In this document: one piece after another, positions 3,334 through 43,125 of the stretch | How positions within the stretch are numbered: position 1 is the first letter of the stretch | Layout: every line of letters begins with the position of its first letter | Assembly: GCA_018825965.1 (NCBI GenBank) | Contig: JAHKAA010000028.1 | Location: 1-64,000, forward strand | DNA from: Gammaproteobacteria bacterium | GTDB lineage: Bacteria > Pseudomonadota > Gammaproteobacteria > Enterobacterales > Alteromonadaceae | DNA length: 64,000 bases | Direction of reading: 5' to 3' | The notes under the pieces: model-generated | Told to the model about the DNA's origin: nothing | Databases searched by the model: none | Seen by the model: only the letters and a program-made list of their open reading frames with translations | Made by a program: the position numbers and the translations under genes

Positions 3334-3474
3334 AGAGTACCCTGTTTGTTTTTAGTTATAGCTATGCTTTTGTTATCTGCTTACTTTAGCTAACTATGAT
3401 GCAAAGCGAACTTAGACTTAAGGTGCATAGACTTTAGGTGTAGCCCAGTCAAAAAAATAAAACAGAAAACAAAA

Positions 3475-3500
3475 AGGGCATCAGTTTTAGCTGATGCCCT
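3475..3500 (-). terminator. Rho-independent terminator after gltBD
   Basis: Perfect 10-bp stem (AGGGCATCAG / CTGATGCCCT) with a 6-base loop. Read on the minus strand it is followed by a T-rich run (TTTTTGTTTTCTGTTTT). It lies just downstream of gltD and before prpE. Confidence 0.85.
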
Positions 3501-3517
3501 GTATTGATTCGAATTTA

Positions 3518-3561
3518 AGACGGGCGGGTACTGTAGGGGCTGGGCTTGCCCCCCGCCCGTC
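3518..3561. repeat. REP-like palindrome, copy A
   Basis: The arms GACGGGCGGG (3519-3528) and CCCGCCCGTC (3552-3561) form a 10-bp stem enclosing a second small stem (GGGGC 3536-3540 / GCCCC 3548-3552). It contains the 12-mer AGACGGGCGGGT found at two other gene ends in this window (19569 and 48686), which suggests a dispersed palindromic repeat and not a gene-specific terminator. Confidence 0.6.
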
Positions 3562-3589
3562 AAGCGCACCCTACAGCAAGTACGAAGGT

Positions 3590-9480
<5,891 letters not shown>

Positions 9481-9879
9481 GACTCTTCCTCCAAACCTGT
9501 CCTGAAAAATAAATATACCCTTAGTTTCTGAAGCTGCAGCTTTGTTGACGACGCTTTATCATTCGTTATCGCGCTGCAATATCAATTTGACTGGGTAAAA
9601 ATGTTAATTTGTTGAATTATTATTCTTGTAAGTGGCGTTTTTATCCCTGAAAGAAAACAACAGCTCTGCTTTCAGTCAGTTAGGTGGTCCGCATAGTTGT
9701 TTTTATGGCGTTTAGACGTCTATCCATAAATAACCAGTTAGATATACCCAGTTCAGGCAGAAATTGCAAGACCAGTCTGGCGCATTTGTTCTACTATTTT
9801 ATTTGAGGCACTGAACAGACTGAGTTGTAATAAAATTACAGAAAGAAGAGGTTTTTACTGATTTAAAAGCAAAAGAGCG
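9481..9879. other. Gene-free region upstream of gltB
   Basis: About 400 bases between the gltB start and the folE2 terminator. It is AT-rich and should contain the gltBD promoter and leader on the minus strand. A single AGACGTCT palindrome at 9714-9721 is visible. I see no ORF with coding character and no recognised RNA gene. Confidence 0.5.
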
Positions 9880-9910
9880 AAAAAAAAGGCCGCTAATGCG
9901 ACCTTTTTTT
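9880..9910 (-). terminator. Terminator after folE2 (bidirectional)
   Basis: AAAAAAAGGCCGC and GCGACCTTTTTTT form a stem with one mismatch around TAAT, flanked by A and T runs on both sides. It can end transcription in either direction and lies just past the folE2 stop. Confidence 0.85.
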
Positions 9911-9939
9911 GTAATTTACACGATATTTTTATGCGGAAC

Positions 9940-10866
9940 TTATGCGTGATAGCCGTTTGAAATACCTTTGACTGTCACTGCAACTGCGTCATGTGCATGC
10001 AGAGACTCATAGTGGTTTACCCGCAGCCAGAAATCATCAAATTCAGACAATTGGTTCAGCGCGTGTTTTAAACGACGGGCTGCATCTTCGCAAAACATCA
10101 GGTTTTGACCGTTTAAGCGGGCAAACTCTTGTTCGTCAGCGCGTTTAACTGCAGCCTGAACAGGTGTTTGCAAAGCATCTTCAATAGCGTCTATTAAAGC
10201 TATCACTGGGAAGTCAGCCACTTTATTATTCAGCTGTACTTTTATTTCAGCGATGGAGCGCTGACTGTGTGGTGTTGCTACTATGCCCTGAGTAGTGCCT
10301 AACCAGTCTTTAACAAGTTCAGCGCTCACTTGCTGGTGACCTGCAAACTTAGCGACAAAAGCTTCCTGAATAAGCTGACGGGCTAAAGCTGCAGAGCAAG
10401 GGCAAGTTGAAGAGTAAGGCACGTTCACCTTCATTTCTACACCTAATTTGCCGTCTTTTAACTGGCCGGTTATAGTCACAGGGTAGGCTTTCCAGCCTTG
10501 TTTTTCTGTGATTAAAGCTTTGCGGCGTAAATGCAGCTCGAAATCAAACTTTACAAAAGCATGAGTACTTAAGTCTTCGTGACTGCTGATAAATTCGTGC
10601 AGCAGTTCGCTTAAGCTGGCAAAACTTAAACTGGATTCAATCGACAGTTGATCCAATAACAGATAAAGCCGCGACATATGAATGCCTTTGGCTTTTGGAT
10701 CCTTTAAGTTCACAAAAGCTTCAACTTTGGCGCTGACCTGGCGTGGTGCTTCGCCTGCCACACTAAACATCAGTGGCAGTTCAATATGGCTCATGCCAAC
10801 CCAATCCAAAACACCTTCAGTGGTGGCGGAAGAATGGTTAGCTACATCTGGCATAGTGGTCGGCAT
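9940..10866 (-). CDS. folE2: GTP cyclohydrolase FolE2 (type IB)
   Basis: Converts GTP to 7,8-dihydroneopterin triphosphate, the first step of tetrahydrofolate and (in queuosine-making bacteria) preQ0 synthesis. The sequence matches the COG1469/FolE2 family: PDVAN start region, a central [17 protein letters not shown] with the conserved cysteines, and [13 protein letters not shown] near the C-terminus. The chosen ATG (10866) has GGAG six bases upstream and gives 308 residues. An upstream in-frame codon at 10893 lacks such a site. FolE2 is the metal-promiscuous alternative to zinc-dependent FolE and is commonly expressed under zinc limitation, but I see no convincing Zur box here. queF, a later queuosine-pathway gene, lies about 32 kb away. 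Confidence 0.93.
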
Positions 10867-11052
10867 GAATACTCCAATGTCCGTCAAATGCAAAGATCTT
10901 CTATCTCCGTCCTTCCTGAAGCCGCAGCATCATTTCGTTGGTTGTATAGAAAACCTTGCTGAAAATTTGGCGCACTTTATACCATATTTTGCCGCGTTGG
11001 CCGGTATAAAATATGTGCTCTATAAGCTGATTTTTTTCGAATAGCTTAAGCG

Positions 11053-11092
11053 AAAAAAGCGAATACCCGACTAAATCTGTCGGATATTCGCT
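11053..11092 (-). terminator. Terminator after the iadA-like gene
   Basis: AGCGAATA/TATTCGCT (8 bp) continues into CCGAC/GTCGG with a one-base bulge. On the minus strand the hairpin is followed by TTTTTT. It closes the TonB receptor-YfcC-IadA operon. Confidence 0.8.
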
Positions 11093-11136
11093 AAATTGGG
11101 ATGATGGAATGGAAAATCAACTCTTAATAGCGGCTT

Positions 11137-12318
11137 TTACTTTTCAAAAGTGCCTTTGACTATAGCCTTGCCGTCTTTTACCAATTGACGGCCTTTGGCA
11201 AAAACATCACGGATGGTTAAATCACTTTTATGCAAAAGCACTAAGTCTGCGTCCATTCCTGCTGCAATACGGCCTTTTTGTTTCAGCCCCAATACTGCTG
11301 CTGGTGCTGCAGTAATAGCAGTGATGGCATCAGGTAAAGGCACCTTATATTCAAGCACAGCCTGGCGGGCGACCTGATATAAAGTTTGTACCTGGCCTAC
11401 CTCAAGCCCAACTAGTTCTCCATGGTCGTTATAGACAGGCAAACTGGCATTGCCATCTGAGCTTAATGTCAGGTTCATGGCTGGAATACCTGCTTCTAAA
11501 GCTCTGGCTAAAGCTGCTGCAGCTGCTACTTCGCCATGTTGTAAGTCGTAGCTGGTTGTGCTGGTGGTAAAATCAATAACAGCACCCGCTTTAGCAAACT
11601 CAAGGCCAGCCTGAAATACAGCTTCATTGCGGTTAATATGAGTAGGGTAGAACTGCGACAACTTAATCTCTGTACCCTCAACTGCTTGCCATAGCGGCTG
11701 TAATAAAGAATCTCCGCTGCCTACATGCACACTGACCAGGCCTGCTTTGCCCGACAAAATACCACCCACTTTAGCTGCAGCTGCCACTTTGCGAATTTCA
11801 TCTATAGTGGGTTGAGAAGAGCGGAAATCGCTGATGGCTATTTCGCCGACGCCGATAAACTTATCAATGAGGATCAGATCGTCTGTGATAGTACCCATTA
11901 AAGTCCGGCATGGAATTTCGTAAGAACCTGTATGGCAATAAGTACTGATGCCTTCAGTTTCCAACGCATGAGCCTTAGCCAGCAGGTTGGTTAAAGTTCT
12001 GGTGGTGGCATCTGTGCCCAAAACGCCAATAGCTGTAGTGACTCCACCTAAAGTGGCATCAGTTAATTGCATTTCAGGAGTGCGGCTGGCAAAACCACCT
12101 TCACCGCCGCCACCAATAAAATGCACTAAAGAATCAACAAAACCCGGTACCAGATAACAATGGCTGGCATCAATCACTTCGATGGGCAAATTACTGCTGC
12201 CAGTATCAAAACCAGGCTGCAAGGCTGCGATCTGTGAACCTGCGACTAAAAGATCCATGGTGCCCAAATCCGCAGGGCTTATCAGATGGGCATTTTTAAA
12301 TAGTTTTACTGTGCTCAT
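11137..12318 (-). CDS. iadA: Isoaspartyl dipeptidase (IadA)-like amidohydrolase
   Basis: Related throughout its 393 residues to IadA, which splits beta-aspartyl (isoAsp) dipeptides. Conserved features are GGGGEGG after the first metal motif, the TGSYEIP segment (catalytic Tyr), VHVG and PTHINR (metal His residues and substrate Arg), and LSSDGNASLP (catalytic Asp). Two points differ from the E. coli enzyme. The expected D-x-H-x-H motif reads GFVDSLVH, so the first metal His is Leu. The bridging carboxylated-lysine position appears to be Glu (IGVGEIAISD), a change I recall in other family members. Start supported by AAGGACAT. It lies 9 bases after the YfcC-type carrier gene, in one operon with a TonB receptor. 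Confidence 0.8.
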   Translation of the reverse strand: MSTVKLFKNAHLISPADLGTMDLLVAGSQIAALQPGFDTGSSNLPIEVIDASHCYLVPGFVDSLVHFIGGGGEGGFASRTPEMQLTDATLGGVTTAIGVLGTDATTRTLTNLLAKAHALETEGISTYCHTGSYEIPCRTLMGTITDDLILIDKFIGVGEIAISDFRSSQPTIDEIRKVAAAAKVGGILSGKAGLVSVHVGSGDSLLQPLWQAVEGTEIKLSQFYPTHINRNEAVFQAGLEFAKAGAVIDFTTSTTSYDLQHGEVAAAAALARALEAGIPAMNLTLSSDGNASLPVYNDHGELVGLEVGQVQTLYQVARQAVLEYKVPLPDAITAITAAPAAVLGLKQKGRIAAGMDADLVLLHKSDLTIRDVFAKGRQLVKDGKAIVKGTFEK

Positions 12319-12327
12319 TTTATGTCC

Positions 12328-13809
12328 TTATTGATATCCAATGGCTACTGCGACCAGCATTGCTGTACTTGCAAGCGCAAAAAGCCAAAGCTGCAAGCGC
12401 CAGGCGAACTTTGCCCATAACATCCAGTCCACCCGTACTACCCCTAAACAACCAATTAAAGAAGCTGATGTAGGCACTATGCAGTTGGTTAAACCATCTC
12501 CCAGTTGAAAGGCCAAAACGGCGATTTGCCTTGATACACCCACCAGGTCGGCCAAAGGAGCAACCAGAGGCATAGTTAAAGCAGCCTGGCCTGAACCTGA
12601 GGTGACAAAGAAGTTAAATACAGATTGGAAAATCAACATAAACCAGGCAGAAATATAAGACGAAAAACCATCAAAGCTGCTGCCTGCATAATGCAGTAAA
12701 GTATTGAGTATTGAAGGTTCTGTTGCGTTGTCTCCCCCTAACAGCAGCACTATGCCTTTGGCCATACCTACTATCATAGCTGCAGGTAATAACTCAGCGG
12801 CGCCTTGCTTAAAGGCATCAGCTGACTCGTTCACTGTCAGTCGTTTGCCAAATACAGCCAAAATGGCTGTAGCAACACCCAATGCAAAAAACTGAGTGGC
12901 AATTTCAGGAATATAATAACCCCTGGCTACTACGCCCCAGATTACCCAGATAATGCCTGCAACAAAGAGCAATAAAATAGCGGCGTCTAAGGTACCGAAG
13001 CTACTGCTTTGTTGTTCCTGCTGCACAGCCCGCAGCTTTTGATCTGAAGCAAAGCTGACAGAAAGTTCAGGGTTCTTTTTAATTTTTCTGGCATAACGCA
13101 TGGTAAAAACAATGCCAAACAAGGTGAACACAACCCAGAGTGCAATACGATAATCTGCTCCTGACATCAAGGGTAAACCCGCTATGCCTTGGGCAATAGA
13201 CACACTGAATGGGTTCATCCAGGACGTAGCAAAACCAATTTGGGTTGCTATATAAGTCACCAGCACAGTGGTAATAGCGTCGTAGCCTAAAGCCAGCATC
13301 AGAGGTAATAAAACGATACAAAAGGCGATGGCTTCTTCACCCATGCCAAAGACAGCACCACCTAAAGAAAACAGCAGAAACATCAGAGGGATAAACAAAA
13401 AGTCTATGTCTTTGGTTTTGGCTATTAACGCCAGAATGCCATTATTCACAGCTCCTGTTTTCATAATGATGCCAAAGGCACCACCTGTCAGCAGAATAAA
13501 GGCAATAACCCCTATAGCCGCACCCATTTTGTCGCCTGAAACCATGCCTTCAAAGGCATAGTTCAGAAAGCCGACTTCACCTGCTTCGCCAAATAAAGGC
13601 ACTGCTTTATTTTGTTCAGCTGCCAGTTGAAAACTATTTGGATCAATACGTGCTTTAACAGTTTCACCTGTTGCATTTACTGTTTCCGGTACCATCTGAA
13701 AATAACCAGCCGGAATAAGATGAGATGCAATAGCTGCCGCTATCATCACAAAAAAAAGTATGACAAAAGCGTCCGGCATGCTGACCGGTTTTTTGCTTGT
13801 AACTTGCAT
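12328..13809 (-). CDS. YfcC/DcuC/ArcD-family inner-membrane carrier
   Basis: A 493-residue polytopic membrane protein with about 11-13 hydrophobic segments and the N-terminal SMPDAFVILFFVMIAAAIAS typical of the YfcC group (Pfam C4dic_anaerob, which includes DcuC dicarboxylate and ArcD-like arginine/ornithine carriers). A glycine-rich GGAVFGMGEEAIAF motif near 150-163 and the FVTSGSGQAALTMPLVAPL segment near 395 are characteristic. The substrate is not deducible from sequence. Linkage to an isoaspartyl-dipeptidase-like gene (9 bp downstream) and a TonB receptor (64 bp upstream) suggests uptake of short acidic or isoaspartyl peptides or export of their products. Ribosome site AGGTAA. Confidence 0.82.
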   Translation of the reverse strand: MQVTSKKPVSMPDAFVILFFVMIAAAIASHLIPAGYFQMVPETVNATGETVKARIDPNSFQLAAEQNKAVPLFGEAGEVGFLNYAFEGMVSGDKMGAAIGVIAFILLTGGAFGIIMKTGAVNNGILALIAKTKDIDFLFIPLMFLLFSLGGAVFGMGEEAIAFCIVLLPLMLALGYDAITTVLVTYIATQIGFATSWMNPFSVSIAQGIAGLPLMSGADYRIALWVVFTLFGIVFTMRYARKIKKNPELSVSFASDQKLRAVQQEQQSSSFGTLDAAILLLFVAGIIWVIWGVVARGYYIPEIATQFFALGVATAILAVFGKRLTVNESADAFKQGAAELLPAAMIVGMAKGIVLLLGGDNATEPSILNTLLHYAGSSFDGFSSYISAWFMLIFQSVFNFFVTSGSGQAALTMPLVAPLADLVGVSRQIAVLAFQLGDGLTNCIVPTSASLIGCLGVVRVDWMLWAKFAWRLQLWLFALASTAMLVAVAIGYQ

Positions 13810-13873
13810 GAGATTTACCTGTTCAATGCAGCCGGGCTAAAAGCCCGGCTTATATTATTCGCTTCGGGTACTG

Positions 13874-16786
13874 TTAAAACTTGTGGCTTAATGCAATACG
13901 GAAGCTGCGGCCTAAAGCATCATGATTAATAGAGTCAAAACCACGGCTTGAACCATAAGCTGCTGGTGGCTCCCTATCAAACAGATTGTCGATATTAAAG
14001 CTGATTGTGGTTTGAGCAAAATCATATCCCAGATTCATACGCCATGTAGTCCAGGACGAGACCTGACGGGTACCTTCTGCGTTTAATACACCTAATTCAT
14101 CCAACTCGTCCAGCTCGCGGCCACGCAGGCCTTCGATATCATCTTCATAGGAATCTGTGTAGTTCGCCGAAATACTGCTGAAGAAGTCTCCTCTGGACCA
14201 GCTAAAGCGCACACCAGCTACAGTTTCAGGGTAACGCCAGCTGCCAATCAGCTCTTCAATTTCGTCTGAGCCCGCTTTGTTGCGTTCAAAAGATAAATAA
14301 TGAGTGGCATCCAGACTAAGGCCAAAGGTGCCGGCTTCAGTATTAAACCTGTGATCGTAGGCCAGATCTATACCGCTTACAGTTTGCTCGCCGGTATTTT
14401 CCAGCAGTAATACGTGGTCACGGAACAGTGGTAACTCCGCAAAACGTGGGTCGTCGTATGCTACCCAGGCGTCCAGTATTTCCGCCATATTAGCGCCGTC
14501 TTGCTCTACATTCAGGCCTGCATTGTCTGTTACATCACAAAGAGCTTCGTCAAAAGAAATGCCCTGTGCACCTTCAGGTACTAAACCACAATGGCGTAAT
14601 GATGCATCCCCAATAGCGCGGGCCAGAACACCTGTCATATTGGTATCGACCAGATTTTCATGCTCAAAGCGCCAGTAATCTACTGTTAAAGTACTGTCTT
14701 CAGACAAACTTAAAGCAAAACCTAAACTGATAGAGTCTGACTCCTCAGCCTGCAGTTGTGGGTTACCCAACTCCAGCACATTGTTGCCGCGTTCATCACT
14801 AAAACCTTCGCAGAATAAATCAGCAACAGCCTGATTGGCACTACAGTCAAAGCTTGCTGTGGTGGTTCTGAGTTTAACCCCGGCCTGAGTCAGAGAAGGC
14901 GCACGGAAGGAGGTTGCGTAAGAGGCCCTGACAATCAGCTCTTCTACTGGGCGATAGCTAAAGCCAACTTTAGGGTTAAAAGTGCTGCCAAAATCATCAA
15001 AATGATCATAACGTGCAGCCAGCTGCATATCTAAAGTACTGGCCAGTGGCACGTTAAATTCTGAAAATGCCGCCCATTGAGTGCGTTCAGCTGCAGATAA
15101 ACTGGAACCAAAACCAAAGACATCGACCAGATAACCATTTTCAGCTCTGGCTATTGCATTGTCTGAAGGGGTATCAGTGATTTTTTCTTTGCGGATTTCA
15201 AGGCCAAAAGCAGAGCTAATGACGCTGTCGTTAAATTCCATTAAATCGCCATTAAAACGCGCATCCCAGCCCATCACTGTGCTTTTGCCTTTGCGGCTTG
15301 GCATTTCCTGAGCCAGAGCTAACAAGGCATCATTGTTGCTGTCATTTTGCAGGAAAGGGTTATACATGCCGGCCAAAGTACCGCTGGCACAGTTCAGACT
15401 ATCGTTGTCTGCGTCGTAGCTGGCGATACTGCCATTGGAGCAAAGTTCTCCTGCTAAAGCTGCATGATATTTATATCTGTTATAAATACCCTGAGTGGCC
15501 AACTGATCAGATTTTGATTCAGAGTAAATCACGGCTGACTCCCAGCCCCAATCGCCAATAGAACCAGACAAAGCACTGACTAAACGTAAAGCATCTGTTT
15601 CCACTTCTACTGTACGGGGTGTGCCAAAACGGGCATCAAAAGCAAAACCATACAGCTCGCGGCCTGCAACAGTATCAAAAGGGTCTATATACAACTGGTC
15701 GAGTAACTCATCCCGCAAAGCCGGACCAAAAACATCCAAAGCGCTTTCGTCGACATAAGGGCCTTCGCTGTCATCCAACTGGTTAATTGGCGCCGGGCTT
15801 GAGAGGGCAACAGATTTGGTCTTGCTGAAAAATACATCTGTATTCCAGCTGATATCGCCAAAATCTTTTTGGAAAATAGCTCCAGTGGAGTAACTGGTTA
15901 AATCTGAGTTCAGTTGGTCATCTTCATTGGGGTAATAAGCGCAAATTTCTTCACCAAACTCTGTAGTGACAAGAGCTGTAGCACAGCCTGGTGTGGCCAG
16001 TTCATTACCTGAACGTACAGAGTTGTAATAAATATTTGGTGTGTTTTTGGGCAGATAAGAGTAAGAGCTTTTTAACAGTGGAGAGCGGGTAAAATCTCTG
16101 TCCAGAGCACTAAAGGCATTACGGTCAAAATAATCCGCGAATACAGTCAACTGACCACCAGCCACTTGCTGGCCAAACACCAGATCCAGGTTGCGGCGGC
16201 TTTCATCGCTGGACGCCATGCTGTCGCCATAAGAAGCATTTAGCTCCATGCCTTCGTAATCTTTTTTCAGTATGTAGTTAATAACACCAGCTACGGCGTC
16301 GGCACCATAAATGGCTGAAGCGCCTGTGGCTAATACTTCAATACGCTCAATAGCGGCTAAAGGAATACTGTTCACATCAACAAAGTTCTGAGTACCAGCG
16401 GCAAAAGAGCTGGCTGCAACACGACGGCCGTTAATCAGTGTCAAGGTAGAAGCCGGGCCTAAACCACGCAATGATGCTGCAGCCTGACCTGCAGGTGTTG
16501 AAGTTGAAGTAGCACCACTTTCAGAGGTAGAAAAAGTACCTTCACCTCCTCTCAATTGGCCTACGTCTTTCAATAAGTCAAAAATAGTATTAGCGCCGGA
16601 CTTTTTAATATCGTCGCTGCTGATCACAACAAGAGGCTGAGCACCCTCTAAATCAACTCCTTTGAGGCGGGAACCTGTGACTTCGATTTTTTCTATTGAA
16701 TCGTTTTCTGTTGCAGTTTCAGTTTGAGCAGATACGGAAAAGCAGCAAGCCGCAATGGCCAGCGAAAGCATAGATGGTTTAAACAT
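13874..16786 (-). CDS. TonB-dependent outer-membrane receptor
   Basis: Energy-coupled outer-membrane importer of about 970 residues. The N-terminal signal peptide (MFKPSMLSLAIAACCFSVSA) is followed by a TonB-box-like IEKIEVTGSRL and the plug domain (SGANTIFDLLKDVGQL, INGRRVA, IERIEVLATGASAIYGADA). A 22-strand-type barrel follows, ending in a terminal Phe (ALSHKF), as expected for outer-membrane insertion. The class with RLKGVDLEGAQPL and serine/glycine-rich plug resembles receptors often linked to peptide or oligosaccharide uptake. The ATG at 16786 puts the signal peptide at the N-terminus. The upstream ATG (16807) adds seven residues. First gene of an operon with a YfcC carrier and an isoaspartyl-dipeptidase homologue. 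Confidence 0.9.
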   Translation of the reverse strand: MFKPSMLSLAIAACCFSVSAQTETATENDSIEKIEVTGSRLKGVDLEGAQPLVVISSDDIKKSGANTIFDLLKDVGQLRGGEGTFSTSESGATSTSTPAGQAAASLRGLGPASTLTLINGRRVAASSFAAGTQNFVDVNSIPLAAIERIEVLATGASAIYGADAVAGVINYILKKDYEGMELNASYGDSMASSDESRRNLDLVFGQQVAGGQLTVFADYFDRNAFSALDRDFTRSPLLKSSYSYLPKNTPNIYYNSVRSGNELATPGCATALVTTEFGEEICAYYPNEDDQLNSDLTSYSTGAIFQKDFGDISWNTDVFFSKTKSVALSSPAPINQLDDSEGPYVDESALDVFGPALRDELLDQLYIDPFDTVAGRELYGFAFDARFGTPRTVEVETDALRLVSALSGSIGDWGWESAVIYSESKSDQLATQGIYNRYKYHAALAGELCSNGSIASYDADNDSLNCASGTLAGMYNPFLQNDSNNDALLALAQEMPSRKGKSTVMGWDARFNGDLMEFNDSVISSAFGLEIRKEKITDTPSDNAIARAENGYLVDVFGFGSSLSAAERTQWAAFSEFNVPLASTLDMQLAARYDHFDDFGSTFNPKVGFSYRPVEELIVRASYATSFRAPSLTQAGVKLRTTTASFDCSANQAVADLFCEGFSDERGNNVLELGNPQLQAEESDSISLGFALSLSEDSTLTVDYWRFEHENLVDTNMTGVLARAIGDASLRHCGLVPEGAQGISFDEALCDVTDNAGLNVEQDGANMAEILDAWVAYDDPRFAELPLFRDHVLLLENTGEQTVSGIDLAYDHRFNTEAGTFGLSLDATHYLSFERNKAGSDEIEELIGSWRYPETVAGVRFSWSRGDFFSSISANYTDSYEDDIEGLRGRELDELDELGVLNAEGTRQVSSWTTWRMNLGYDFAQTTISFNIDNLFDREPPAAYGSSRGFDSINHDALGRSFRIALSHKF

Positions 16787-35704: not shown

Positions 35705-37267
35705 TTAGCTTTTTAATACGACTAAATCCCTGCCTGCACGTTTGGCTTCGTATAAAGCTTCGTCTGCACGGTCAAAAGCTGCTCTGTTATTGTCAGAGGC
35801 CTTGAGTTCAGTCGCACCAAAAGAAATTGAAATGGGCACGTTCTGGTCTTTGAATTTAAAGGGGATTTTCTTGATCCTTTCCCTCAGATTATTCAGAGGC
35901 TGTTTAAGTTCAGATAAATGTGTTTCCGGGAACAAAATAATAAACTCCTCACCACCATAACGGGCGATAAAGTCAGTTTCACGTAAGCTTTGTTTTAACG
36001 CCTGAGCTATGACTTTTAAGGTTTTATCACCAGCACTGTGGCCATAGTTATCGTTAATTTGTTTAAAGTGATCCACATCAGCCAAAGCTATAGCCAAAGG
36101 TTTACCATAACGTTGAGCGCGGCGGATTTCCAGCTCAAAACGTTCGTCAAAAGCTGCTCTGTTAGGTAATTCTGTTAAGGCATCCTGCAAGCTTCTGAAT
36201 TTTTGCTCGGCCAGACGTTTTTTAAATTGGGTTGCTTCCTGTTCCAGTTCAGACAGGCGGGATTCCATATGACGTAAGGTGGTTAACATCAACTCACGTT
36301 CGTCTTTTTCCAGTTGCTCTTTTTCACGCAAAGAATTTGTAATAGCACCCAGCTTGGTGCTGACCAAAGACTGCAACTGCTCCAGCGAAGTGGCTGATTT
36401 GGTATCTGCAGTTAAATTGGTGATTTGCTGCTCTATTTGCTTGTTCAGCAGCAGCATTTTTTCTTTGATGTTGTTTGACGTATTCAGCGATGAAACAACA
36501 GCTTGCTGCACCCCGGTCAGGGCTTCGTTTAGTTTGAGCAGGAAATGTTGAGCCGACTGACGCTCGTCTGTCACTGAGGCAATAATAATTTCAATGGTGC
36601 GTAAGCAGGATTCCAGCAGGGACTCAATGCTGACATCAGACAATAACGTTAAGCGAATTCGTTCTATATCCTGGCCATATTTACCTTCAAAGGCCAGTTC
36701 ACTCAGCAGGTTAGTCAGTTCAACAGAAATTTGCCGGCAAATAGCCTGATACTTCTTGTCGTCCTCAGCGCCGTTTTGCTCATTTTGTTGTTTAGTGGCC
36801 AAAGCTGATTGATACAACTCTGTTAAACGGGTGATATGGGGTAAAAATGCCTGCACAGTAGGAGATGGTTCTTCTACTTTTGTCAGCAAATCACGTAAAT
36901 CGCGCCTTAACTGATCCGGTAAGCCACGTTGTTTTTGCAGCATTTTCCCGGCATCTGTCAAAGTGCTTTGTGCTTTTTTCAGATCGGACTGCTGACGGGC
37001 TTCCAGTGTTTTCAGAGTTTCAACTGCACTTTCCACCAAAGGCAGAATTTTTTCCAGATCAGTGCCTTTGGCAAACTCCTGACGCAAACGCGCCAGCTTA
37101 TTATCCAGCTCAATATCTATGCCTTTACAGGCCAAAGACAGCCTGGATACAAATTGAGACAAAATTTTAAACTGACTTTCGTAGGTATCTTCCAGCTGTT
37201 TGCGTGCTTTTACTGCATTTGCCAGCTGTTGTTTTACATCACTTTGCTGCTCGGCCACCAGAATCAT
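35705..37267 (-). CDS. Diguanylate cyclase (GGDEF) with long coiled-coil N-terminus
   Basis: A 520-residue soluble protein. About 345 residues of heptad-like helix (many Leu/Gln/Glu) precede a complete GGDEF domain. LTELPNRAAFDERFELEIRR, ALADVDHFKQINDNYGHSAGD (metal Asp) and the active-site YGGEEFIILFPE are all intact, and an inhibitory I-site RETD lies five residues upstream of GGEEF. It should make c-di-GMP and be product-inhibited. No membrane segment. The signal is probably cytoplasmic or through partner binding. It precedes ppnN by 35 bases. The start could be this ATG (GGGGA very close) or the GTG three codons on. Confidence 0.9.
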   Translation of the reverse strand: MILVAEQQSDVKQQLANAVKARKQLEDTYESQFKILSQFVSRLSLACKGIDIELDNKLARLRQEFAKGTDLEKILPLVESAVETLKTLEARQQSDLKKAQSTLTDAGKMLQKQRGLPDQLRRDLRDLLTKVEEPSPTVQAFLPHITRLTELYQSALATKQQNEQNGAEDDKKYQAICRQISVELTNLLSELAFEGKYGQDIERIRLTLLSDVSIESLLESCLRTIEIIIASVTDERQSAQHFLLKLNEALTGVQQAVVSSLNTSNNIKEKMLLLNKQIEQQITNLTADTKSATSLEQLQSLVSTKLGAITNSLREKEQLEKDERELMLTTLRHMESRLSELEQEATQFKKRLAEQKFRSLQDALTELPNRAAFDERFELEIRRAQRYGKPLAIALADVDHFKQINDNYGHSAGDKTLKVIAQALKQSLRETDFIARYGGEEFIILFPETHLSELKQPLNNLRERIKKIPFKFKDQNVPISISFGATELKASDNNRAAFDRADEALYEAKRAGRDLVVLKS

Positions 37268-37375: not shown

Positions 37376-37684
37376 AAAATCAGCAATTATGTAGGGTATT
37401 TTTTTGTGGTTACTTTTTGGTTAAATAGTAGGGTAACCAGCTTTGTTCTTCAGCAGAGGTCAGATAGTTCATCTTGTTCACTTTTGGTCTGAAGTTAATA
37501 GGGTTGTCCCTGTCAGGACGAGGTGCATTAAAGCAGAATTTGATCTGAAAGTAAAAGTTAAAATGTAATAGTACGAAGCGGGTTACATAATTTTGATCGC
37601 TTTTATTGGGTGTTTGGTGGTGTTTTATTCGCTATTTATTTGAATTTATGGTTGTTTTTCATTTTTGGTTCTGGAGGTTGTAGC
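37376..37684. other. Gene-free region before the M61 peptidase gene
   Basis: About 310 AT-rich bases. It should hold the promoter of the peptidase gene. On the minus strand an open frame without a good start ends at 37410-37412 (final residues MNYLTSAEEQSWLPYYLTKK) just before the terminator at 37355. It could be a small gene or a remnant. Confidence 0.35.
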
Positions 37685-37687
37685 GTG
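37673..37687 (+). promoter_or_regulatory. Ribosome-binding site and GTG start of the M61 peptidase gene
   Basis: GGAGGT at 37673-37678 with a 6-base spacer to GTG at 37685. This decides the start. The upstream in-frame ATG (37610) would give an extra hydrophobic stretch before the real signal peptide. Confidence 0.8.
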
Positions 37688-39451
37688 AGATTTCTGAAAG
37701 TGTTTTTTGCACTGATCATAATTGGCAGTTCAGCTTACAGCTGGGCACAAGTGGATTATCAAATCAGTATCACTGAACCAGAGCATCATTTAGCAAAAGT
37801 CCGGGTGGAGCTGAATGTGGCAGAGGCCAAAGCTCTGACTTTGATGTTGCCAGCCTGGCGCAGTGGTAAATATAAAATTCTGGATTTAGCTAATGGTATC
37901 AGTGGCTTCAGCGCCATGGATGCACAAGGCAAGGCCATCAACTGGCAAAAAACTGAGAAAAGCAGCTGGACTATAGAGCCAACATCAGCAGGTAAAGTTG
38001 TAGTGGAATATACAGTCTATGCCAATCAACTGGCGGAGCGCACCCGCCATATTGATGAAACTCATGCTTATATCAACGCCAGCGCTTATTTAATGTTCAG
38101 CCAGCCACACAAAGCTGAGGCAGTATCAGTGCAGCTGGAAGTACCACAAGGCTGGCGCTCTTTTTCCGGTATGGATAAAAAAGATAACGAGCATAAATTT
38201 ATTGCCGCTAATTACGATGTGCTGGCCGATTCACCTATAGAAACAGGCATCAACCAGCACCACAATTTTCAGGTGGATGGCCGTGATTACGATCTGGTGA
38301 TTTGGGGCGAAGGCAATTACAACGCGACCCAGATGCAAAAAGACTTAGCAAAGCTGGTGCAGCAAACGGACTCTATCTGGCAAGGTTATCCTTACCGCCG
38401 TTATTTGTTTATTGTGCATGCCACAGACGGCGTTCGTGGAGCCACTGAGCATTTAAATTCAACTGTGATCCAACGCGACAGATTTACCTTTGCACCCCGG
38501 GCTAATTATCTGGAGTTTTTAGGTACAGCCTCACACGAAATAGTGCATACCTGGAACGTCAAAGCTTACAGGCCGGCTGAGTTAGTGCCTTATGACTATA
38601 TCAACCCTAATTACAGCAAGCTGTTGTGGCTAGCTGAAGGCTCTACCAGTTATTTCCAGAACCAGTTGTTATTGCGCGCAGGTTTAATGACAAAAGCAGA
38701 GTTTTATCAGGATCTGACAAAACGTTTGCACAGATTTATGCATACACCAGGGCGTTTAGTGCAGTCGGTGGCTGAAGGTAGTTTTGACAGTTGGATCAGT
38801 GCTGGTGGCGACCATGGCACTAACTTTGGTGTGAATATTTACTCTGAAGGTTATATCGCCAGTTGGCTGATGGATGAATTAATTTTAAGGCAGTCAGGGC
38901 GCAAAGCCAGCTACCGCGAACTGCATAATCAGCTGTATCAGCGTTTTGCTAAAACCACTGCTTTTACCGCCGAAGACGTGATCCAGATTGCTTCACAGCT
39001 GACAGGTGAAGATCAAAACTTATGGTGGCAACAACAAATAGAACAGCCGATGAAATTTGAGCCTGAACAGCTGTTAGCCAGCTTTGGTTTGCAATGGCAA
39101 AGGGGCAAAGAACGTGAAACCTTTGCAGGTATTACAGCTGAAGACAAAAGCGGTTTTGCGCTGGTGAAAAAGGTAGAACGTGATGGCCCTGCCTGGAAAG
39201 CGGGTTTTACTTCTGAAGATTTAATTGTTGCTATCAATGCTTTGCAGTTAAAAGGCGATTTGGGCCACCGTTTGCAGGATTTTAAAGCTGGCGACAAGGT
39301 ACAAGTCAGCTATTTCCGCCAAGGCAGATTACAGCATCAACCACTGGTGTTGGCTGATAAGCCTAAAGGGATGGGGAAAATTGAGCCTGTGGCTAAACCA
39401 AGTCGTCAGCAAAAGGCGATGCATAAGGCGTGGTTGGGGGTGGATCTTTAG
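37685..39451 (+). CDS. M61 family metallopeptidase (glycyl-aminopeptidase type) with PDZ domain
   Basis: Secreted or periplasmic peptidase of 588 residues from the GTG start. Signal peptide FLKVFFALIIIGSSAYSWA, N-terminal beta-rich M61 domain (about 22-185), gluzincin catalytic domain with SHEIVHTWNVKAYRP (HExxH, about 280) and the third zinc ligand in LWLAEGSTSYF (Glu about 322), then a C-terminal PDZ-like domain (about 470-565) with FALVKKVERDGPAWKAGF. M61 enzymes prefer N-terminal Gly/Ala and are common in Alteromonadales. Monocistronic, followed by the stem-loop array. Confidence 0.88.
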   Translation: MRFLKVFFALIIIGSSAYSWAQVDYQISITEPEHHLAKVRVELNVAEAKALTLMLPAWRSGKYKILDLANGISGFSAMDAQGKAINWQKTEKSSWTIEPTSAGKVVVEYTVYANQLAERTRHIDETHAYINASAYLMFSQPHKAEAVSVQLEVPQGWRSFSGMDKKDNEHKFIAANYDVLADSPIETGINQHHNFQVDGRDYDLVIWGEGNYNATQMQKDLAKLVQQTDSIWQGYPYRRYLFIVHATDGVRGATEHLNSTVIQRDRFTFAPRANYLEFLGTASHEIVHTWNVKAYRPAELVPYDYINPNYSKLLWLAEGSTSYFQNQLLLRAGLMTKAEFYQDLTKRLHRFMHTPGRLVQSVAEGSFDSWISAGGDHGTNFGVNIYSEGYIASWLMDELILRQSGRKASYRELHNQLYQRFAKTTAFTAEDVIQIASQLTGEDQNLWWQQQIEQPMKFEPEQLLASFGLQWQRGKERETFAGITAEDKSGFALVKKVERDGPAWKAGFTSEDLIVAINALQLKGDLGHRLQDFKAGDKVQVSYFRQGRLQHQPLVLADKPKGMGKIEPVAKPSRQQKAMHKAWLGVDL

Positions 39452-40107
39452 AAACTGTTGGGCATGGTTTAACTCTGCCCGTGCTGTTAGAGCGACAAAC
39501 GAAGTTCGTTTACAACTTCTTGCTTCACTCTGCAGTAACTGTTTTTAATTGCTACATTTTTTGCTTTAAAGCTTTCGCCGCTGGCGAGATACTTTCTTTT
39601 GCTTCGCCAAAAGAAAGTATCCAAAGCTAGAAAGTGCAGGAAGCACTTTCTAACAGCCGAAGGCTGGCCCGCAGGGTGAATTGCATGGACGCAATTCATA
39701 AAAGGCGACCCCAGGTCACAGCGACAACGCTTGCGTTGAACAGCTTTAGCTGGCCCCGAAGGGGTACGAACGAAGTGAGTATAAAGCCCGGCTCAAAATC
39801 ATGCGTCCAAGGCGACGCGGTAACTCGCTCGTCGCTACCGATCCTAACTCAAACAGTCCGCGTCTTAAAACCTTGGCCACCCAATTTTGTCCGGCTTGCG
39901 TCCTAATGGGGATTTGGTGCCTGTAGTTGATTACGATTTTTTTGATGGACTGCAAAAAGCGAAATGAGGCATCGGGGCACATCGCAAGGCCTGACCCTCT
40001 GAGTTTCTTTGATGGCTATCAAATGCGAATAGGGGCAGTGACGCACAGCACAAGACTAGATCCTGAGGTATCATTAGGCGTTTACCTAACTGCAATGAAG
40101 AAAAATC
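39452..40107. other. Gene-free stretch with structured repeat
   Basis: 656 bases between the M61 peptidase and the cyclase-like gene. The left half is filled by consecutive stem-loops (39588-39764, listed separately). The right half has a loosely repeated TTTGATGG...GGGGCA segment (around 39939-39977 and 40008-40037). Frames across it look non-coding. The region resembles dispersed intergenic repeats seen in gammaproteobacteria. Confidence 0.5.
39588..39764. repeat. Array of seven consecutive stem-loops
   Basis: Perfect stems in series: GATACTTTCTTTT/AAAAGAAAGTATC (39588-39621, 13 bp), AGAAAGTGC/GCACTTTCT (39629-39651), CAGCC/GGCTG (39654-39666), GAATTGC/GCAATTC (39678-39697), CAACG/CGTTG (39725-39738), CAGCT/AGCTG (39741-39752), CCCC/GGGG (39754-39764). 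Such a dense run is far beyond a normal terminator and suggests a structured mobile repeat or RNA. Confidence 0.7.
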
Positions 40108-40920
40108 ATGTACGAAGAACGTTATATTGCTTTTATCGATATATTGGGTTTTGGTTCTTTAGTCGAGACCAGTGCTTCAAACCCAGAGATAGTTCAAGGA
40201 ATAGAAAATGCTTTGTCAGAGATGGTACCAGCTAAGTTAATCGAAGAAATGTATGGGTTCCTTAATGAAGATGTCATTCCTGATGACAGCCTTGCAAGAG
40301 CGAGAAATGTAGCTAAAACTCTGGGTGAAATATTGGCTAAGAAAAATCCAATAACCGTCTCTTACTTTTCAGACTCACTTGTACTATCAGCTGCATATGA
40401 TGATGTAATCGCGTCACAAACGATTTTAGAGTTGATTGCAAAACTTAGCGTTAGACTATGGAATGAATACTCTTTAGTAATTCGCGGTGGAATTACAATT
40501 GGCAGTTTGACACATAAACCGAATGGGCCGTTATTCGGTCCTGCAATGAATCGAGCTTACCATCTTGAATCAAAAGAAGCTCTATATCCAAGAGTACTAG
40601 TAGATAAGATATGTCTAGAACATTTCCAGCGTATACGCACATTTCAAATTTTTGATTCACTGATCGAGCACGATGAGCATCATGCATATTTCTCACTGCC
40701 CTCAGCATTGAGATATTTAGCTACATCCAGCACCTTAGCAATGTACGACAACGAAAGGTTAAGAGATGTCATAAAAACTCGAAAAGAACTGGAAGCAAAA
40801 ATTAATGAAATAATCGCCCTAACTACAGTGACTTCCGTACGTGATAAGTACATCTGGCTGGCTCAAGAGTCTAGGATGTCTTCGTTCGAGCACAGACTTC
40901 TCATACAAACACCGAAATAA
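40108..40920 (+). CDS. Standalone class III nucleotide-cyclase-like protein
   Basis: A 270-residue soluble protein of no named family. The pattern of a class III cyclase homology domain is visible. AFIDILGFGSL (about 8-18) gives the first metal Asp on strand 1, VSYFSDSLVLSA (about 87-98) the second Asp on the hairpin, VIRGGITIGSL (about 126-136) the RxGIxxG strand, and FGPAMNRAYHLESKEALYPR (about 144-163) matches GxxVNxAARLE..A. The transition-state Asn is kept but the usual Arg four residues on is His. Codons such as AGA, CTA and ATA are frequent, unlike neighbours, and the gene is AT-rich, so it was probably acquired by transfer. Cyclase activity is possible but unproved. The next gene is an HTH-membrane protein. 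Confidence 0.55.
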   Translation: MYEERYIAFIDILGFGSLVETSASNPEIVQGIENALSEMVPAKLIEEMYGFLNEDVIPDDSLARARNVAKTLGEILAKKNPITVSYFSDSLVLSAAYDDVIASQTILELIAKLSVRLWNEYSLVIRGGITIGSLTHKPNGPLFGPAMNRAYHLESKEALYPRVLVDKICLEHFQRIRTFQIFDSLIEHDEHHAYFSLPSALRYLATSSTLAMYDNERLRDVIKTRKELEAKINEIIALTTVTSVRDKYIWLAQESRMSSFEHRLLIQTPK

Positions 40921-41070
40921 TTAGCTGTATGAATATTTGAGTTAGAAAATGGCTGTAAAGATTGTTATTTTCGCTTGCTAGGTCATGGCTACTAAGTCCT
41001 TATAACTAACGTTAAAAGTCAGCTTCTGCCACTGAACCGAAATCTAGATTTGAATGCACCAGGGGAAAAA

Positions 41071-41204
41071 TGGGGTCGGGTCTTGCCCTTTGCCCTGATC
41101 TTTGAGAGATAGATTTGTTAGCAGTTTTCTATGGTTTTTTTCTTTAAACTCACTGAAATTTAATCAATAAATTATTTTGGGGCAAGGGGCAAGACCTTGC
41201 CCTG
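41071..41204. repeat. REPIN-like pair of inverted REP sequences
   Basis: GGTCGGGTCTTGCCCTTTGC (about 41073-41092) and, in inverted orientation, GGGGCAAGGGGCAAGACC (about 41179-41196), about 85 bases apart. This GTCTTGCCCyTTGCCC motif is the kind linked to REP-associated tyrosine transposases (TnpA-REP) in marine gammaproteobacteria. No transposase is in the window. Confidence 0.6.
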
Positions 41205-41266
41205 CTGGCTGCTCAAGCACGAGTTTAAATGGAGTAAATCACTAAATTCTTTTGATTTCTTTCCCA

Positions 41267-41304
41267 ATGTCATATTGATGTCGCATTAATGACGCTAGCA
41301 CGAC
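41267..41304. promoter_or_regulatory. Four helically phased 11-bp repeats (candidate operator)
   Basis: ATGTC at 41267, ATGTC at 41278, ATGAC at 41289 and ACGAC at 41300 are each exactly 11 bases apart, one helical turn. They lie 63-100 bases upstream of the HTH-membrane regulator start, as expected for an autoregulatory site bound along one face of the DNA. Confidence 0.5.
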
Positions 41305-41366
41305 GTTTTCAAAGGCTTAAAAAGCTTCAAAATGATATCTTTAGCAACTTGGGAAGGTAGCGGTTC

Positions 41367-42113
41367 ATGTACATGCAAATAAACAGTAAAATTTTAATAG
41401 AGCTGAGAAAAAAGCGTGCCTGGAGTCAGAGTGAGTTGGCTGAAGTGACGGGGTTAAGCTTGCGAACTGTGCAGCGAATCGAAAAAAGTGGTACAGCATC
41501 GCTGGAGTCTGTAAAGGCATTTGCTGCTGTGTTTGAATTAGCGCCAGAATCATTGCAGTTAGCTACAGTTACAGATGAAGAGGCCGCGGATTCAAACGAA
41601 ACCTGCGTTATCGTCAGCCAAACCCGAGCTTCGTTTACGTTAAGCGATCAGGCAATTCAGCTCTCTTTAGCGCTGTTTTTACCCGCTTCAATGGTCATGC
41701 TGTTTATGTTGTTTACTAAAATCCCGAATGTAGACTGGATCCATACCACGAGGCTGACGTTATTTAGTGAGGTTTTGCCGCAATGGATAAGCTTGATCAT
41801 TAATCTAACCATAGCTTTGTTGCCGCTTCTTGTTCTCTCTACAATAGCCGGAATTTGTTGGGATTTATATAAACGGCAAGGGGTTTCGGACTTCATAAGG
41901 CAAATGATCAAGAGACCTTTCCCCCTAAGAGCACTGTTAAGTAAACTTCATACAAATTCGCGTCGGGCTGCCTTTTTGTTTCGGAAACCCGCTCTGTTCT
42001 CTGTTCTGCTATTCATCCTGACGGTTAGTGTTATAGGTTTCACTATGGAGCCTTATCAGAAAGCTAATTTTAAACATTTTATCGCCCAAATTTTATATAC
42101 CAGCGACCAATAA
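41367..42113 (+). CDS. Membrane-anchored XRE-type HTH regulator
   Basis: 248 residues. The N-terminal HTH (about 5-58: LIELRKKRAWSQSELAEVTG, LSLRTVQRIEKSG) is of the Cro/C1 type with a strong recognition helix. The rest has three hydrophobic segments, about 92-113, 130-157 and 207-228 (FLPASMVMLFMLF, LIINLTIALLPLLVLSTIAG, LFSVLLFILTVSVIGF). This arrangement implies a membrane-tethered DNA-binding regulator. The signal and targets are unknown. GGGAAGG precedes the ATG (a second ATG is two codons on). Upstream phased repeats may be its operator. It follows the cyclase-like gene by 446 bases in the same direction. Confidence 0.7.
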   Translation: MYMQINSKILIELRKKRAWSQSELAEVTGLSLRTVQRIEKSGTASLESVKAFAAVFELAPESLQLATVTDEEAADSNETCVIVSQTRASFTLSDQAIQLSLALFLPASMVMLFMLFTKIPNVDWIHTTRLTLFSEVLPQWISLIINLTIALLPLLVLSTIAGICWDLYKRQGVSDFIRQMIKRPFPLRALLSKLHTNSRRAAFLFRKPALFSVLLFILTVSVIGFTMEPYQKANFKHFIAQILYTSDQ

Positions 42114-42231: not shown

Positions 42232-43071
42232 TCACTGCCGTGTTAACCGTAAATTAGGCTGGTCGCAAGCTTCGCTGCTGCGTAGTGGGTTGATATCCAG
42301 GCCGCCTCTTCTGGTGTAGCGGGCGTATACCATTAGAAATTCTGGTTGGCACAGCTTCCACAAATCGAGATAAATCCGCTCTACACATTGCTCGTGAAAT
42401 TCATTGTGGCTTCTGAAACTGATCAGGTACTTCAGCAAGGATGCATGGTCAATAGCTTTGCCTTTGTAATGAATATAAACACTGGCCCAGTCTGGCTGGG
42501 ACGTGATTAAGCAGTTGGATTTCAGTAAATGCGAATGCAGCTTCTCGTCCACCAAAGCACCTGTTGGCTTTAGTTGCAGCAGCTCTGGTTTGTAGTCGTA
42601 ATGCTCAACTTCAATATCTAAATCGTCGATGCAACGGCCTGGCAACCAGGTCGGTTGAAAAGCGGTGAGCTCATTCACGTTATGCAAAGTCACTTGCACA
42701 GGACCACCGGCACAGGTCGATAAATCGGTTTTCATAGTGCGGTACAGCTGGCTGATATCGGCAAATTTACTTTGATTTAAGCTGTTTAAATACAGTTTAA
42801 ACGACTTGGATTCAATCAGGTTCGGCGTATTAAAGGGCACCACAAAAGTGGCTAAAGCCACCATAGGTTTACCTTTAGGGGTCAGCCATGACAACTCGTA
42901 GCCATGCCAGGTATCCTGACCAACAAAAGGTAATTCTTCGCCTAAACCTATAGCCTGACGGCCTAAAGTGCGTGGCACAGCCTGCAATAATTCGGGACTG
43001 TAGTGATCAATATAAGCAGTGGCCTGGCCTAATGTCAGTCCAGATAACTGCTCTGTTTGTATTTTTGTCAT
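42232..43071 (-). CDS. queF: NADPH-dependent 7-cyano-7-deazaguanine reductase QueF
   Basis: Reduces preQ0 to preQ1 in queuosine biosynthesis. The long unimodular-pair (YqcD) type, 279 residues from the ATG at 43071 (the earlier in-frame TTG is unlikely). Motifs: the QueF signature LIESKSFKLYLNSLNQ (about 91-106), the catalytic region KSNCLITSQPDWA (about 186-198) with active Cys and Asp, and the substrate Glu/His segment FRSHNEFHEQCVERIYLDLW. It is divergent from syd as in E. coli. Confidence 0.95.
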   Translation of the reverse strand: MTKIQTEQLSGLTLGQATAYIDHYSPELLQAVPRTLGRQAIGLGEELPFVGQDTWHGYELSWLTPKGKPMVALATFVVPFNTPNLIESKSFKLYLNSLNQSKFADISQLYRTMKTDLSTCAGGPVQVTLHNVNELTAFQPTWLPGRCIDDLDIEVEHYDYKPELLQLKPTGALVDEKLHSHLLKSNCLITSQPDWASVYIHYKGKAIDHASLLKYLISFRSHNEFHEQCVERIYLDLWKLCQPEFLMVYARYTRRGGLDINPLRSSEACDQPNLRLTRQ

Positions 43072-43125
43072 AACACCAACAACCAAGTTAGAATGGCGGC
43101 AATTTTAGCACAGAAGCGAATCACC

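Follow-up and report, generated by a model that had tools for sequence, protein, structure and literature searches.

A predicted class III cyclase-fold protein with non-canonical active-site residues at a variable site in an Alteromonadaceae genome, and its probable kinship with the toxin PanT

The gene and its genomic site

The stretch of DNA analysed here, referred to below as the window, comprises 64,000 nucleotides of contig JAHKAA010000028.1 from a gammaproteobacterium of the Alteromonadaceae, and the gene of interest lies on its forward strand at positions 40108–40920. The frame is intact, begins with ATG and encodes a protein of 270 amino acids with a predicted cyclase fold. Because this protein matches PHROG 23933 (E 1.1e-27) and PHROG 21097 (E 7.2e-11), for both of which the function is listed as unknown, and because four homologues from other Gammaproteobacteria are 52–58% identical to it over their best segments, the frame is not a chance one. 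Pfam returned nothing below E 0.2 for the window protein, with no match to PF00211 at E 1, neither NCBIfam nor PADLOC matched it at E 1, and a search of Rfam at gathering scores over positions 39400–41500 gave no match. A weak resemblance to the Pfam family Palm_thioest (E 0.23) was dismissed as an identity for the protein. The first-pass annotation of this DNA had called the gene AT-rich, which the composition bears out, viz. a GC content of 38.7% compared to 45.0% for the window, and 31.7% at third codon positions compared to 45–51% in five neighbouring ORFs.

The gene sits between two well-kept borders, each of which has a match in all 22 genomes of the genus (own genome included). On the left is a peptidase-like gene (37610–39451, forward strand), for which the name 'M61-like' is our own, taken from the sequence rather than from a family search, and on the right is queF (42232–43086, reverse strand), recognised by the Pfam models QueF_N and QueF. 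A dispersed non-coding repeat (39567–40006, forward strand), which is repeated within the same genome, directly precedes the gene and follows the peptidase-like gene; the interval 39452–40107 used as a query gave 34 matches in the genome, itself included, some of them composite or tandem pieces, and pieces of the repeat also occur at the peptidase–queF site of related genomes that do not have the gene. Downstream lie genes for an HTH protein, QueF and Syd. The HTH gene at 41367 was rejected as a partner, as a close match stands at the same site with the gene absent in three of ten hotspot regions (L215, L217 and L221). Two further features were noted by eye: an inverted GGGCAAG-type repeat at 41060–41205, downstream of the gene and resembling a REP or MITE element, and, two genes upstream, an ORF for a GGDEF-type diguanylate cyclase (35705–37267, with a GGEEF motif), which is unrelated to the gene.

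The distance between the two borders is about 2.8 kb in the window. Among the other 21 genomes of the genus it is about 70–170 bp in ten, all of which have more distant flanks (peptidase 57–61% identical), about 0.7–4.2 kb in a further ten, and split over contigs in one. The cargo of the ten long gaps, judged by eye, includes an ATPase-like pair, a 349-aa ORF, a TonB-receptor-like gene (two genomes) and a LysR/SDR set (two genomes), and in the other four there is little beyond repeats, at most an HTH gene or a small ORF. One genome, G370, keeps a remnant of the gene, consisting of its last 37 residues (78% identical) with about 800 bp missing, and three other genomes of the genus encode different members of the family that are about 37% identical to the window protein. 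The variable cargo of the site and the G370 remnant together indicate that the gene is a single hotspot cargo which has been lost at least once. It had been placed in an accessory island, and of that description the accessory setting stands and the word 'island' is too strong, since this is one gene within about 2.8 kb of variable DNA. As a separate observation, the same hotspot in genome G374 (L214, 582–4140) holds an ATPase-like gene and a 756-aa gene, possibly another defence pair.

Among homologues matched over their full length, the most similar one, from Cognaticolwellia (L024, 55% identical), forms one cassette of an array that resembles an integron. This array spans positions 3380–15922 of its locus, where 11 copies of a 94-nt attC-like repeat and related ones were recognised by eye, and on its opposite strand there is a broken integrase-like frame. 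As integron cassettes usually hold one gene each, the location of this homologue agrees with a protein acting by itself. A search around the window gene gave no attC-like pair, and integron carriage is thus limited to this one case among 165 rows, as judged with a crude pattern.

Predicted fold and active site

An AlphaFold2 model of the window protein built from an 80-row alignment of the family is confident (pLDDT 91.3, pTM 0.88), compared to a poor model from the single sequence (pLDDT 35). When this model was compared to the PDB with Foldseek, class III cyclases made up 48 of the 50 rows listed (best E 4.7e-6), the other two being Csm (Cas10) complexes placed below cyclases at ranks 47 and 49. 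With VIA-align all 50 rows listed were class III cyclases, the best having a Z-score of 13.5 and an rmsd of 2.6 over 157 aligned residues, and the matches mainly cover model residues 1–207. Neither PycC nor mCpol was among these 50 VIA-align rows, an absence that excludes neither. The structure prediction therefore assigns a class III cyclase fold to the window protein, extending over roughly residues 1–207, in agreement with the first-pass annotation. No known sensor domain is attached, as had also been proposed; instead, DSSP of the model places two long helices at residues 216–266 (40753–40905, forward strand), which lie outside the cyclase fold and carry the conserved K247 and W250. A profile search of the PDB with our first profile, A1, found class III cyclases at an E-value of about 0.001. 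With a larger profile, A3, two beta-propeller chains (E 9.9e-7 and 7.8e-4) ranked above the cyclases, and these were set aside as artefactual, as none of their individual stretches passed.

To place individual residues, the family was aligned by hhalign to a reference profile of 18 class III cyclases, drawn from 30 PF00211 loci of which the other 12 failed a simple motif; this single pairwise comparison gave a probability of 93 and an E-value of 2.8e-7. The functional roles of the aligned positions are those we take over from mammalian adenylyl cyclase. The alignment puts D11 of the motif FIDILGF (codon 40138–40140, forward strand) on the first metal-binding Asp and D89 of the motif FSDS (codon 40372–40374, forward strand) on the second, which upholds the two Asp motifs read originally from the sequence. 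Two metal ions would be bound by D11 and D89 if these residues act as their counterparts do. The segment GPAMNRAYH, which had been read as a GxxxNxA motif, does indeed align N148 (codon 40549–40551, forward strand) with the catalytic Asn and, four residues on, H152 (codon 40561–40563, forward strand) with the transition-state Arg, in line with the His noted there at first. Asn is present at the former position in 32 of 137 family rows, with Ile or Val in 87, and Arg at the latter in only 11, Glu being the commonest residue (37/137). The canonical Asn/Arg pair is complete in a single row (L189). By these alignments the Arg-to-His change is real, yet members of the family as a rule lack the canonical pair.

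The positions that select the base have diverged in the same manner. S85 aligns with the adenine-selecting Lys by hhalign, and the base-selecting Asp position corresponds to P141, which was assigned by counting back from G144 because hhalign gapped there; across 80 rows the two positions are mostly Thr or Ser and Ile, Val or Pro, respectively. PF00211 itself gave only four weak matches among 80 family members at E-values up to 0.1, the best being 7.3e-4.

Conservation, distribution and gene neighbourhoods

The family was assembled in two ways. A first set of 22 relatives, including the window's own copy, was gathered by searching plasmids and genomes at the protein level with no motif used, and in the 19 of these that were aligned D11, G14, S88, D89, R126, G132, E154 and P161 are invariant. 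In 84,980 species genomes one conserved peptide pattern matched 418 stretches, 251 of which encode relatives, and the best 80 of the 251 were kept; among viral contigs, relatives are encoded in 44 of 80 stretches matching the pattern. The final alignment has 137 rows after omission of ten loci (fragments, repeat fetches and the window's own copy) and merging of identical proteins. All 137 rows have both D11 and D89, although the invariance of D11 is partly by construction in the pattern-found rows because the recruiting pattern contains it. D89 is absent from the recruiting patterns, and D11 was also kept in 19 of 19 rows found without a pattern. G14 is invariant as well, and R126 (136), E154 (135), K247 (131), R162 (121), W250 (118) and H136 (112) follow in decreasing order; D190 is found in 114 of the 137 rows and is Glu in the window protein. 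On this alignment a new conserved set, formed by R126, E154, K247 and mostly H136, appears to replace the canonical residues. That the protein might be a dead enzyme, one of the options raised at the outset, is made unlikely by the invariance of both metal Asp residues.

Relatives occur on 39 plasmid records and on chromosomal contigs of many phyla, and they were found in 6 of 369 genomes of the class, 5 of 22 of the genus and, by profile, 11 of 299 of the phylum, with the own genome counted each time. NCBIfam models gave only scattered, chance-like matches to 80 members, and PADLOC gave one weak match to 19 members (PycTM, E 0.021). The curated Pfam and NCBIfam models therefore do not cover the 80 members scanned, the weak cyclase matches apart, and PADLOC has none for the 19. 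Among the journal papers listed by the literature searches, none besides PMC8832971 was seen to deal with this family.

The genes next to the homologues were clustered by BLAST (E 1e-6, half coverage, up to about 8 kb from the homologue) for 112 homologue clusters. The commonest neighbours are a resolvase-like recombinase (7 of 112), a type I restriction-like protein and a terminase (6 each), and ParA and a type I modification-like protein (5 each), these names being our own reading, partly backed by family searches. No effector-like gene family recurs beside the homologues among the 112 clusters, and Pfam applied to 150 adjacent ORFs found no family in more than three of them, as judged from the 25 of 127 families listed. 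Among 106 representative loci, an ORF on the same strand lies within 60 bp upstream in 35 of 105 and downstream in 25 of 104. A Pycsar-type system, suggested initially as one home for a new nucleotide-signal synthase, is not borne out by this survey: no effector is linked to the gene in the window, and the gene is not part of a Pycsar operon, given that no effector-like family recurs beside its homologues.

Some special cases, chosen by eye and then family-tested, place homologues within or next to defence loci. One homologue (L082) precedes a Guanylate_cyc gene and a PycTM gene, and another (L042) follows a nucleotidyltransferase gene and a Cap15 gene inside a type I restriction–modification-like locus. 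Since both of these loci have their own candidate signal enzymes, the homologue is not the missing synthase in either. A third homologue (L063) lies after an HsdM-like gene and before a PIN gene, and a fourth (L101) is two genes before a QueC-family gene in what we read as a Qat-like locus. Regarding the layout of these loci, the L042 region (2915–6534) has the CBASS-like nucleotidyltransferase and Cap15 genes and the homologue between hsdM-like and hsdS/hsdR-like genes, and in L101 (7926–11295) the homologue overlaps the start of an apparent qatB–qatC–qatD series that has no recognised qatA-like gene immediately ahead and of which the QueC match was family-tested. Three viral contigs (L141, L144 and L145) have the homologue immediately after a ParA-like gene, a place in which a ParB gene might be expected.

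A comparison was also made on plasmids, for which 13 of the 39 matching records were taken and one locus (L018) was dropped as a copy of the L012 region, leaving 12 loci. An annotated Abi, toxin–antitoxin, restriction–modification or dsr1 gene lies within 6 kb of the homologue in seven of them (L011, L013, L015, L017, L019, L020 and L022), compared to two of 12 control windows half a plasmid away (L208 and L210; an ArdC anti-restriction gene in control L202 was not counted). Fisher's test gives 0.045 one-sided and 0.089 two-sided, and as the scoring was by eye from product names and unblinded, with two target windows shorter than 12 kb, this enrichment of defence genes near plasmid homologues is suggestive only.

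The Panacea-paired clade, PanT and the possible role of the protein

The strongest lead to function, and one absent from the first-pass annotation, is a clade of homologues paired with the antitoxin domain Panacea, which points to a toxin role. A Panacea (PF13274) gene lies directly upstream of the homologue in L080 and L134, and in L134 the frame of the homologue can begin at a TTG codon 2 bp past the Panacea stop codon. A search of 349 genomes of the Burkholderiaceae, the family of genome G668, found a homologue match in 14, and in three of these (L191, L193 and L194) the homologue is overlapped or directly adjoined on its upstream side by an open frame resembling the two Panacea proteins. 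In a quick tree these five loci form one clade (SH-aLRT 100), and the window protein belongs to a different clade of ten rows (support 98). No Panacea gene was found beside the window gene or the nine other rows of its clade with a model made from two Panacea proteins; because this model is narrow, the window clade may yet have other antitoxins. The toxin reading rests on one clade of the family, which is not that of the window gene. In the terminase–portal–capsid region, the part compared, the prophage carrying L134 has 86–87% DNA identity to Burkholderia phages such as Milagro and KL3, over 75% of the length. The L134 protein scores 698 bits against phrog_21097, and the Panacea clade is the best fit to PHROG 21097; a search of a phage collection gave no match to the window protein, L134 or L191, though PHROG 21097 was built from phage proteins.

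This clade recalls a published toxin. Excerpts of the study by Kurata et al. 2022 (PMC8832971) describe PanT, a 'putative nucleotide cyclase' toxin of the Burkholderia prophage phi52237 that is neutralised by a Panacea antitoxin, with which it forms a complex. According to the same excerpts, PanT has no CDD domain, an HHpred similarity of 97% to adenylate/guanylate cyclase and a weakly predicted membrane segment; it inhibits transcription more than translation and raises ppGpp via RelA, its inhibition of growth being independent of ppGpp, and under its action GTP falls slightly and ATP is unchanged (PMC8832971). The prophage phi52237 is classed in the Peduoviridae. We take this to be the P2-like phage family, and phi52237 would accordingly be P2-like. 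On indirect evidence, viz. the classification of its phage, the score of L134 against phrog_21097 and the likeness of the L134 prophage to Burkholderia phages, PanT in our judgement very probably belongs to the family of the window protein.

Considering the question of what the window protein does, our leading interpretation, which we hold tentatively and at slightly less than even confidence, is that it is a stand-alone, metal-dependent toxin or defence enzyme of cyclase fold with non-canonical chemistry. It has the cyclase fold in its model, its metal Asp residues are invariant in the family and the canonical pair is lost, its relatives are spread sporadically in accessory settings with no recurrent effector found, and one clade is paired with an antitoxin. 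In such an enzyme D11 and D89 would hold two metal ions within the class III fold, the substrate would be a nucleoside triphosphate, and R126, E154, K247 and H136 would form a putative catalytic set in place of the Asn/Arg and base-selecting pairs. Its product, or the reaction itself, would stop growth, and the protein might act as a toxin-like factor, in abortive infection or in the stabilisation of a mobile element. A lone toxin would need control, for which tight expression, a dimer that forms only upon a trigger, or the C-terminal helices are candidates.

This interpretation may be extended to the family as a whole, which is found in many bacterial phyla, on prophages and plasmids and in at least one integron array. 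Its members, having exchanged the class III catalytic pair for the new conserved set, could share a different two-metal nucleotide reaction, other than the synthesis of cAMP, cGMP, cCMP or cUMP, that arrests transcription, with many acting solo in abortive infection and one clade restrained by Panacea. We offer this as a speculative possibility and would not expect it to hold in full.

Among the alternatives, the idea that the protein is a nucleotide-binding regulator or sponge, which would bind a nucleoside triphosphate or cyclic nucleotide without turnover, e.g. as a counter-defence factor of prophages and plasmids, would account for the loss of the transition-state residues and for the relatives on 44 viral contig stretches and 39 plasmid records, and the two homologues beside CBASS-like and Pycsar genes would have potential targets close by. 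We consider it unlikely, however, as binding alone does not obviously demand both Asp residues in every row together with near-invariant charged residues, and as the family is also chromosomal in many phyla and has an antitoxin pairing in one clade. A Pycsar-like synthase, making a cyclic mononucleotide on infection for an effector encoded elsewhere in the genome, is improbable too. It shares the class III fold and both metal Asp residues, and one homologue (L082) adjoins a Pycsar pair; PycC also has, in the excerpted account of PMC11224242, two metal Asp residues and divergent base-selecting residues. Nevertheless, the PycTM gene of L082 already has its own cyclase gene, effector-like neighbours do not recur among the 112 clusters or, in the 25 of 127 families listed, the 150 adjacent ORFs, 136 of the 137 rows lack the canonical Asn/Arg pair, and PADLOC gives no match. 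An ordinary adenylate or guanylate cyclase that tolerates His at the Arg position would explain the fold and the metal Asp residues, yet we give it very little credence in view of the family-wide lack of conservation at the Arg, Asn and both base-selecting positions and of PF00211, which has no match to the window protein at E 1 and reaches 4 of 80 members at E-values up to 0.1. The least credible reading is a degenerate, inactive relic, to which the sporadic occurrence (5 of 22 genus genomes, own included, of which three have members about 37% identical, with a remnant in G370) lends some colour, and which is opposed by the intact frame, the invariant D11, G14 and D89, the nearly invariant R126 and E154, and the quite different look of the true relic in G370.

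The preferred reading, a toxin or defence enzyme acting alone, can finally be set against the systems already known. Like the window protein, class III cyclases such as Rv1625c, CyaC and soluble guanylate cyclase have the fold (Z up to 13.5, on the predicted model) and the two metal Asp residues; unlike them, the family has no conserved Arg/Asn and Lys/Asp, and it has its own conserved residues and two C-terminal helices. Where these cyclases have a base-selecting Lys/Asp (or Glu/Cys) pair, the window protein has S85 and P141. Pycsar PycC, as excerpted from PMC11224242, resembles the window protein in its cyclase core, its two metal Asp residues and its phage-defence setting, and differs in that the window gene has no PycTIR- or PycTM-type partner and no PADLOC Pycsar match at E 1. 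The Panoptes protein OptS (mCpol) is likewise a small nucleotide enzyme with two active-site Asp residues encoded in defence operons, but in the excerpts available of PMC12657218 it resembles Cas10/GGDEF enzymes and pairs with OptE, whereas the window protein best matches class III cyclases, and no OptE-type gene was seen among the genes next to the window gene.

PanT of phi52237 shares several features with the family, being cyclase-like by HHpred, lacking a CDD domain and being prophage-borne in the excerpted description (PMC8832971). Moreover, a Panacea gene immediately precedes family homologues of a P2-like Burkholderia prophage and of Burkholderiaceae; the window gene differs from PanT in having no Panacea gene and in belonging to another clade of the family. 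What was already known, then, is the cyclase fold and one published toxin that is probably of this family, and the curated models applied here do not cover the family itself. That toxin stops transcription and sets off the stringent response in E. coli, as described in PMC8832971, and the 137-row alignment, the conserved residues, the confident model and the relatives in which no antitoxin was recognised now bear on the question of how it acts. If stand-alone members do protect against phage, a large family outside the curated models applied here would join the systems of nucleotide-based immunity.
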